DNA from: Burkholderiales bacterium
GTDB taxonomy: Bacteria; Pseudomonadota; Gammaproteobacteria; Burkholderiales; Burkholderiaceae_C
Assembly (NCBI GenBank): GCA_947450745.1
Contig: CANFYD010000002.1
Span: forward strand, 1-35,108
Length of the DNA: 35,108 bases
Reading direction: 5' to 3'
Positions 12,076-16,277 of this stretch are shown piece after piece. Below the pieces are notes generated by a model. The model did no database searches. It saw only the letters and a list, made by a program, of their open reading frames with translations, and was not told the DNA's origin. The translations under genes and the position numbers were made by a program. Numbering within the stretch: position 1 is the stretch's first letter; every line of letters starts with the position of its first letter.

Positions 12076-12504
12076 TCAGAAGGGCTTGACCACCACCAAG
12101 ATCACGATGGCGGCGAACATCAACACCGAGGCCTCGTTGAAGACCCGAAACCAGCGGTGGCTGCGGCGGTTCGCCATCACCTCGAACTTGCGCAGCAAGC
12201 TGCCGCAAGCATGGTGATAACCGCCCACCGCCAACACCAGCGCCAGCTTGGCATGCATCCAACCATTGCCAGGGCCGCGACCAATGCCGTAGTACAACCA
12301 CAGCAGCAAGCCCAGCGCGATAGCAGGAATCATCAGCAAGGAGCTGAAGCGGAAGAGCTTGTGCGCCATCAGCAACAGCCGTTCGCGCTCGGCATGGCTG
12401 TCGGCCGGCACCATCGCCAGGTTGACGAACAAGCGAGGCAGATAGAAAAGGCCAGCAAACCAGCTGGCGACGAAAATGATGTGAAGGGCTTTGATCCAGA
12501 GCAT
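12076..12504 (-). CDS. hemJ: CopD/HemJ-like membrane protein (candidate protoporphyrinogen oxidase HemJ)
   Basis: MLWIKALHIIFVASWFAGLFYLPRLFV...GNGWMHAKLALVLAVGGYHH...; His and HxKL positions expected of HemJ; adjacent to hemB. Confidence 0.72.
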   Translation of the reverse strand: MLWIKALHIIFVASWFAGLFYLPRLFVNLAMVPADSHAERERLLLMAHKLFRFSSLLMIPAIALGLLLWLYYGIGRGPGNGWMHAKLALVLAVGGYHHACGSLLRKFEVMANRRSHRWFRVFNEASVLMFAAIVILVVVKPF

Positions 12505-12606
12505 TGAGGGATTATGCGGTGCCCGGTTGACAGTCGCTTTTGCGCCTGCGCGTAGGGATTTTCAAGCCTCGCCCCAGCGTGACCCGGCGCGCACTTCTGC
12601 CGCAGC

Positions 12607-12637
12607 CAAAAAAAAGCCCCGACTAAAGAGTCGGGGC
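12607..12637 (-). terminator. Rho-independent terminator, minus strand
   Basis: On the minus strand GCCCCGACT-CTTT-AGTCGGGGC followed by TTTTTTTT. Confidence 0.88.
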
Positions 12638-12721
12638 GAGAAAGCCTTTTCGCTGTCATCACTAAAGGCTCCTGCTCAGGGAGGAAAAGCAGGGAACGAC
12701 CACCTTGCGGCTATCATCCGA
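12607..12721 (-). ncRNA. Candidate small RNA or leader/attenuator upstream of hemJ
   Basis: Minus strand: extended -10-like TGTTAAAAT at 12735-12727; CCTGC-TTTTCCTCCCTGA-GCAGG hairpin; AGCCTTT...AAAGGCT hairpin; then the terminator. Confidence 0.5.
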
Positions 12722-12823
12722 CATAGATTTTAACACCGCCCATTTGAGGCTTGCACTAGGGGATTTGCGTAGAGCGTGCTGCCTTGCACGTTTGGTCGAT
12801 GTTCCGCTGCACAGCCTCGGTGA

Positions 12824-13959
<1,136 letters not shown>

Positions 13960-13960
<1 letters not shown>

Positions 13961-15336: not shown

Positions 15337-15464
15337 ACTGCCCGTTTTGAGTGCTCTTTACCCCCCGCGTCCACGGGGGCGCAGCACAGCGACAGGCTTT
15401 GAACGGCTACTTAAGATTCGTTCATCGACAAAACATCGCTTGTTGCAAGCACACCGGACCTCAC

Positions 15465-16277
15465 ATGAACAACACCAAATTCTTCATCGCCGCCCTGATC
15501 AGCGCCGCCTTCATCCCCACGATGGCCAGCGCCGCGTCTTACGACTTTGCCGACCTGAAGTGGAGTGGCAGCCCGGCCAAATCCAGCGGCTTCCTGCCTT
15601 CGGAGGTTTTGCAGAAGGCCAGCACCGCCAGCACAACGAGCGGCTTGGGTTACTGGAATTGCACTGGCGGTGATGTGTGCAGCTCGAACATGGACAAAGC
15701 CAACACCGCGCTCGGCGGGGACTTGAAGTTCACCTCCAGCGGCCTGACAGTCACCGCCACCGCCCTCTTCAACGGCGCTACCGCCACCGTCGTGCAGGAC
15801 CACGACAACGGCTACAACGCCAGCAAATCAATCGGTGCCGGCTTGGGTGTCTATCACTTGAAAGGCAATAACAGCGACGACAACATCACCGCCAAAGAAA
15901 CCCTGGTGATGTCGTTTGCGAATGCGGTCGCCCTGCAAGGCTTCTCTTTGCGCTCCGAAGGCCACAACACCACCTGGAACAGCAATTCGACCTTCAGCTT
16001 GGCCGTGACCGGTGCCGACAACAAGGTCACCACCTTCAGCAGCCTAGCGCTGAAAGCGACGTACAGCCTGACCGATCTGACCACGCTGAACCACAACCAG
16101 CCTTTGCTTGGCAGCAAGTTCGCCTTCAGCTATGGCGGCACCAAGGCGGATCAGTTCTATTTGTCCGGCATGACGGCATCCGCGATCGCGGCCGTGCCGG
16201 AACCCGCCACTTATGCGCTGCTGATGGCAGGTTTGGGTGCCATCGGCTTTGTAGCCCGCCGCCGCAAGGCGGCCTGA
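15465..16277 (+). CDS. PEP-CTERM sorting domain protein
   Basis: Signal peptide MNNTKFFIAALISAAFIPTMASAA; C-terminal VPEPATYALLMAGLGAIGFVARRRKAA. Confidence 0.95.
   Translation: MNNTKFFIAALISAAFIPTMASAASYDFADLKWSGSPAKSSGFLPSEVLQKASTASTTSGLGYWNCTGGDVCSSNMDKANTALGGDLKFTSSGLTVTATALFNGATATVVQDHDNGYNASKSIGAGLGVYHLKGNNSDDNITAKETLVMSFANAVALQGFSLRSEGHNTTWNSNSTFSLAVTGADNKVTTFSSLALKATYSLTDLTTLNHNQPLLGSKFAFSYGGTKADQFYLSGMTASAIAAVPEPATYALLMAGLGAIGFVARRRKAA

Follow-up and report, generated by a model that had tools for sequence, protein, structure and literature searches.

The window, a stretch of 35,108 nucleotides from a Burkholderiales bacterium, contains a small element between hemJ and hemB. The hemJ gene (UPF0093/PF03653; Pfam score 138.9 bits) occupies positions 12076–12504 on the minus strand, and hemB, coding for ALAD (PF00490; 454.7 bits), runs on the plus strand from a probable TTG start at 12947 to 13960. 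This apparent start follows a GGAG by a few bases, and a longer in-frame reading frame opens at an ATG at 12827. Between the two genes, the sequence, its predicted fold and a terminator scan delineate an extended −10 box, a stable RNA and a strong terminator on the minus strand (12720–12608). The box, TGTTAAAAT at 12735–12727, is of the sigma-70 type with no clear −35 element. It reads exactly as quoted in an initial annotation of this DNA, which had called it extended −10-like. The RNA is predicted to start at about 12719–12722 and to comprise approximately 113 nt (12608–12722), divergent from hemB and upstream of hemJ, which is a separate gene.

Folding of the 115-nt minus strand gave a single dominant structure on which the minimum free energy and centroid predictions agree. 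Its energy of −48.0 kcal/mol compares with −33.8 ± 3.4 kcal/mol for dinucleotide shuffles (z = −4.16), and no competing antiterminator was seen in this fold. The structure consists of four hairpins, one more than the initial annotation had counted. The additional one is the 5′ hairpin H0 (12694–12719), which has the sequence GGAUGAUAGCC GCAA GGUGGUCGUUC from 12719 to 12694 and lies outside the Rfam model discussed below. It precedes hairpin H1 (12671–12693), which is supported by the fold and by an alignment of relatives, and which presents the loop UUCCUCCCU. The loop contains the CCUCC (12684–12680) that had been described as resembling an anti-Shine-Dalgarno sequence. The predicted probability that this candidate seed is unpaired is 1.0. 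Hairpin H2 (12643–12670), supported by fold and covariation, is followed by the intrinsic terminator (12608–12637). The terminator stem (12637–12616) comprises nine pairs, seven of them G–C, and leads into a run of eight T (U in the RNA; 12615–12608) that ends 104 nt 5′ of the hemJ ATG (12504), in agreement with the roughly 100 nt estimated earlier.

When the entire window was searched with cmscan against Rfam 15, a single match exceeded its threshold. The anti-hemB family, RF02837, matches the minus strand at 12608–12695 with 68.3 bits (gathering score 49.5; E = 4e-14) over the entire model (1–81 of 81). Hence, the window RNA adds a member to a known small RNA (sRNA) family and is not an unexplained element, and a terminator for which no annotated gene had offered an explanation is explained by RF02837. 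In keeping with membership, the locus carries a CCUCCCUGAGC hairpin, a second hairpin, a terminator with a U run and helices with compensatory changes among relatives, and it adjoins hemB on the opposite strand. The family member in Burkholderia cenocepacia, known as Bc7 or ncS04, is 105 nt long; its start has been mapped, and it was recovered together with Hfq (PMC5688073, PMC4603805, PMC6321483). The window RNA shares with Bc7/ncS04 the CCUCC-loop hairpin, the second hairpin, the terminator, the divergent hemB neighbour and a comparable size. It departs from the described anti-hemB RNA in the identity of its 5′ hairpin, in a longer H2 loop insert, in its extended −10 promoter, and in having hemJ rather than engB downstream. 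Its terminator also lacks the second C-rich loop, CUCCCC, found in many families. The element is an ordinary member of a described family for which the literature that we found assigns no function.

This architecture was compared among 56 aligned relatives, in which 93.4% of the paired cells are standard pairs. Compensatory change, which the initial annotation had proposed to look for along with a covariance model match, is evident at 12 of the 18 pairs, which vary on both sides. It occurs in all three modelled helices, including H2 (4 of 5 pairs) and the terminator (5 of 6). None of 500 shuffles reached any of five covariation measures, and pairing fell to 52–65% when the partner was slid by one column. 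The loop CUCC is invariant in these 56 relatives and is predicted to be unpaired in 74 of 76 that were folded. A further set of 38 named loci was selected by a pattern that fixes H0 and H1, so that conservation of these two hairpins in that set is no evidence; only figures for H2, the terminator, the promoter and the spacer were taken from it. Within the window's clade H2 is 93% conserved, compared to 29% for the spacer between terminator and hemJ. In other families, an analogous 5′ hairpin is built from another sequence, such as GACGAU..AUCGUC. Many families (L003, L004, L034 and other loci outside the window's family) also have a second conserved C-rich loop (CUCCCC; CUCCCCUUU), which lies in the terminator hairpin. 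This CUCCCCUUU loop, absent from the window's clade, is possibly a second seed that was lost there.

RF02837 scores above its cut-off in 190 of 299 genomes sampled from the order Burkholderiales. A sample of 249 genomes from the phylum contained eight genomes with such a match, every one inside this order. Among named records, the window's variant occurs in Roseateles, Paucibacter, Pelomonas, Rhizobacter and close relatives. A possible second copy in the window's own genome (G000:C49, 27.4 bits) was not counted, its score being similar to that of background matches throughout the phylum. This element (L002, 1440–1570) consists of a hairpin-terminator with a CUCC stretch and lies 3′ of a phasin-like gene. 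Six anti-hemB matches, four of them well above the cut-off, were found in one genome of the window's family (G256), which contains no RpoE. Two of the six are arranged in tandem about 180 bp apart (L103, G256:C10:719400-723000).

Two alternative identities can be weighed against this evidence. Double-hairpin "toxic" sRNAs (RF02278, with ncS27, bdhR1 and Bordetella pertussis S17) and the mmgR and ncS025 families have a similar layout of a CU-rich loop and a terminator, and they do produce weak cmscan scores in the window: 35.2 for ncS025, 25.3 for mmgR and 20.3 for RF02278. Each of these scores remains below its own gathering score (46, 41 and 50, respectively), whereas RF02837 reaches 68.3 across its whole model, which makes membership in any of these families highly improbable. 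The window RNA resembles S17 and the double-hairpin RNAs of B. cenocepacia in having a CU-rich loop complementary to ribosome-binding sites (PMC11722255, PMC5688073), but differs from RF02278 RNAs in family, locus and architecture. We therefore rejected S17 as a homologue. Since terminators are common and the element is intergenic, one could also imagine chance hairpins next to a bidirectional terminator of the hemJ/hemB region, with no regulatory role. Given the Rfam match, the covariation, the conserved loop, the promoter and the occurrence in 190 of 299 genomes, this idea is hardly credible.

Gene context bears on two further readings, both of which tie the RNA to a neighbouring gene. The initial annotation had offered two possibilities, a free-standing sRNA of about 115 nt and the attenuated leader of a heme gene. 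The latter reading, in which the terminator would be read through to hemJ under some heme or ALA condition, draws on the location of the terminator on the same strand 104 nt before hemJ, and on the presence of hemJ downstream of the RNA and on its strand in all 23 scorable loci of the window's family. Outside this family, however, the RNA is maintained without hemJ at 46 loci, where it is convergent with engB in 39 cases and follows engB on the same strand in seven. This context, together with the unconserved spacer to hemJ, argues that attenuation is not the conserved function. Moreover, the one dominant fold leaves no rival antiterminator, and the homologue in B. cenocepacia is a discrete 105-nt RNA with a downstream neighbour that is also in opposite orientation (PMC4603805, Table 4). 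We consider a hemJ attenuator very unlikely. A cis-antisense RNA that controls hemB by overlapping or pairing with its 5′ UTR would fit the literal family name. Divergent hemB accompanies the RNA at 61 scored loci, hemB was predicted as a target of Bc7 (PMC6321483), and where engB and hemB are codirectional a read-through mRNA would overlap the RNA. In the window, by contrast, engB is not upstream and hemB starts 225 nt from the predicted 5′ end of the sRNA. At −6.6 kcal/mol, the duplex predicted for the hemB start region is weaker than those for random windows of the contig (mean −9.9 kcal/mol); the value for hemJ is ordinary (−11.5 kcal/mol). Furthermore, the seven loci where the RNA follows engB have no hemB within the fetched stretch. 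Cis-antisense control of hemB is therefore unlikely, and the name anti-hemB should be read as describing a position, with hemB as a neighbour and not a demonstrated target. The reading that we hold with high confidence is that of an independent, trans-acting sRNA of the anti-hemB family.

The promoters of this sRNA differ between lineages. Other families have GGAACTT, a spacer of 15–18 nt and TCTNA at a fixed distance upstream of the RNA, a motif present at 32 of 47 loci as compared to 0.4% in base shuffles. These boxes resemble the sigma-E consensus of enterobacterial rybB and micA, GGAACTTTT...GTCAAA (PMC1804206). A pattern that places the −35 box at the right distance, GGAACY-N(40-68)-CCTCCCTGAGC, is found in 118 of the 299 order genomes; the reversed control is found in 2. 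No GGAAC motif precedes the window copy or the RNA at any of 31 loci of the window's family (0/31). What we find instead in the window's clade is TA-N3-T at a constant distance 5′ of the RNA in 39 of 39 loci (the window and its 38 named relatives), with the TG extension of the −10 box in 25 of them. These observations suggest that in most other betaproteobacterial families anti-hemB may owe its transcription to the envelope-stress sigma factor. In the window's lineage, a housekeeping-type promoter may have taken the place of this sigma-E-type one.

The gene rpoH is a classical sigma-E target. In an independent check, the sigma-E-type motif was found upstream of rpoH in 8 of 21 genomes outside the window's family, compared to 1% in shuffles. 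Because several of these motifs overlap a CIRCE-like TAGCACTC, and because a second check, on rpoE autoregulation in nine genomes, did not find the motif upstream of rpoE, the support from rpoH is partial. Two Burkholderia-type genomes (L256, L257) contain a clean GGAACT...CTCTAA about 225 nt before the rpoH match, yet the motif is absent from their sRNA promoter.

Burkholderia is the only studied host that our literature search found, and Burkholderia-type sRNA loci (L032, L033, L049) have no sigma-E-type promoter. In B. cenocepacia, ncS04 showed no significant change in any tabulated condition, in a study in which the stresses applied, including SDS, mostly caused no induction (PMC5688073). 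This result counts against the proposed role, although the absence of a sigma-E-type promoter from Burkholderia would account for the failure to identify a condition that induces ncS04.

RpoE (TIGR02939 above cut-off) is encoded in 257 of the 299 order genomes and in 96 of 121 genomes of the window's family. It was not found in three genomes of the window's genus, namely the window's own (G000, 79% complete), G008 (complete, one contig) and G010 (100% complete). Among the 41 genomes without a near-cut-off RpoE, eight have the sRNA, several of them being fragmented assemblies, as opposed to about 182 of the 258 others. Fisher's test on this hand count gives p ~7e-10, a value that overstates independence since the genomes share ancestry. 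The genomes lacking both RpoE and the sRNA fall into few clades (f42, most of f20, f10 and part of f32). Clear exceptions, in which the RNA was kept and RpoE is absent, are the window's genus and G256. Two RpoE-bearing families lack the motif: the window's own and the Burkholderia-like f32. A strict co-loss of motif and RpoE was rejected, as 96 of 121 genomes in the window's family have RpoE and none of its 31 loci has the motif. The loss of the motif throughout this family, including genomes that still encode RpoE, means that the promoter changed and RpoE disappeared in separate events.

Based on these comparisons, we favor, with some reservation, the following history. Anti-hemB would be an ancestral sigma-E-dependent sRNA of betaproteobacteria, a functional counterpart of RybB and MicA, that largely disappeared from lineages without RpoE. 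The window's clade (Roseateles, Paucibacter, Pelomonas and allies) would have kept the RNA after losing the sigma-E promoter as well as RpoE by shifting its transcription to a housekeeping extended −10 promoter, and the RNA would thereby have been uncoupled from envelope stress. Since a sigma-E-type promoter is present in most other families, the ancestral role probably lay within the envelope-stress response, as it does for RybB and MicA. The logic that we propose to be shared with these two RNAs is that of a sigma-E-driven, Hfq-bound RNA acting at the ribosome-binding sites of mRNAs (PMC1804206). In contrast to RybB and MicA, the window RNA has no Rfam match to either family, its candidate seed is a hairpin loop instead of a single-stranded 5′ end, and the window copy lacks the sigma-E motif. 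Neither the sigma-E-type promoter in other families nor its replacement in the window's lineage appeared in the open-access literature that we searched, and we regard both as new. The comparison supplies a concrete and testable upstream regulator in the form of a sigma-E-type promoter in many betaproteobacterial families. If correct, it would connect a betaproteobacterial small RNA to envelope stress and show that, through promoter replacement, an sRNA can persist after its sigma factor is lost.

As to how the window RNA may work, we envision that transcription runs from the sigma-70-type extended −10 promoter, away from hemB, to the RNA's own terminator, producing an independent RNA of about 113 nt. 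This RNA would most likely act in trans with Hfq, the gene for which is present in the window's genome. The open CCUCC loop of H1 could then pair with the Shine-Dalgarno regions of target mRNAs and thereby lower their translation. B. pertussis S17, an RNA of another family, has been shown to act as a repressor by means of CU-rich loops at ribosome-binding sites (PMC11722255). A scan of three genomes of the genus for AGGGAGG-N-ATG (43 distinct ORFs of at least 60 aa) yielded only one orthologous pair and no convincing target. This lone recurrent AGGGAGG-ATG pair, shared between two of the genomes, appears by eye to encode a molybdopterin dehydrogenase-like large subunit (L192/L213), and it is too weak to be claimed as a putative target. 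Two genomes of the genus also share the leader CAGGGAGGGATTGA(A/C)GATGATG 5′ of an ATG (L182, L122), which in G008 precedes a gene for a predicted secreted protein. This leader is possibly a conserved target of the sRNA, or a mere conserved ribosome-binding site. Elsewhere in the window, positions 15351–16277 code for a predicted protein that ends in VPEPATYALLMAGLGAIGFVARRRK, a PEP-CTERM-like sorting signal.
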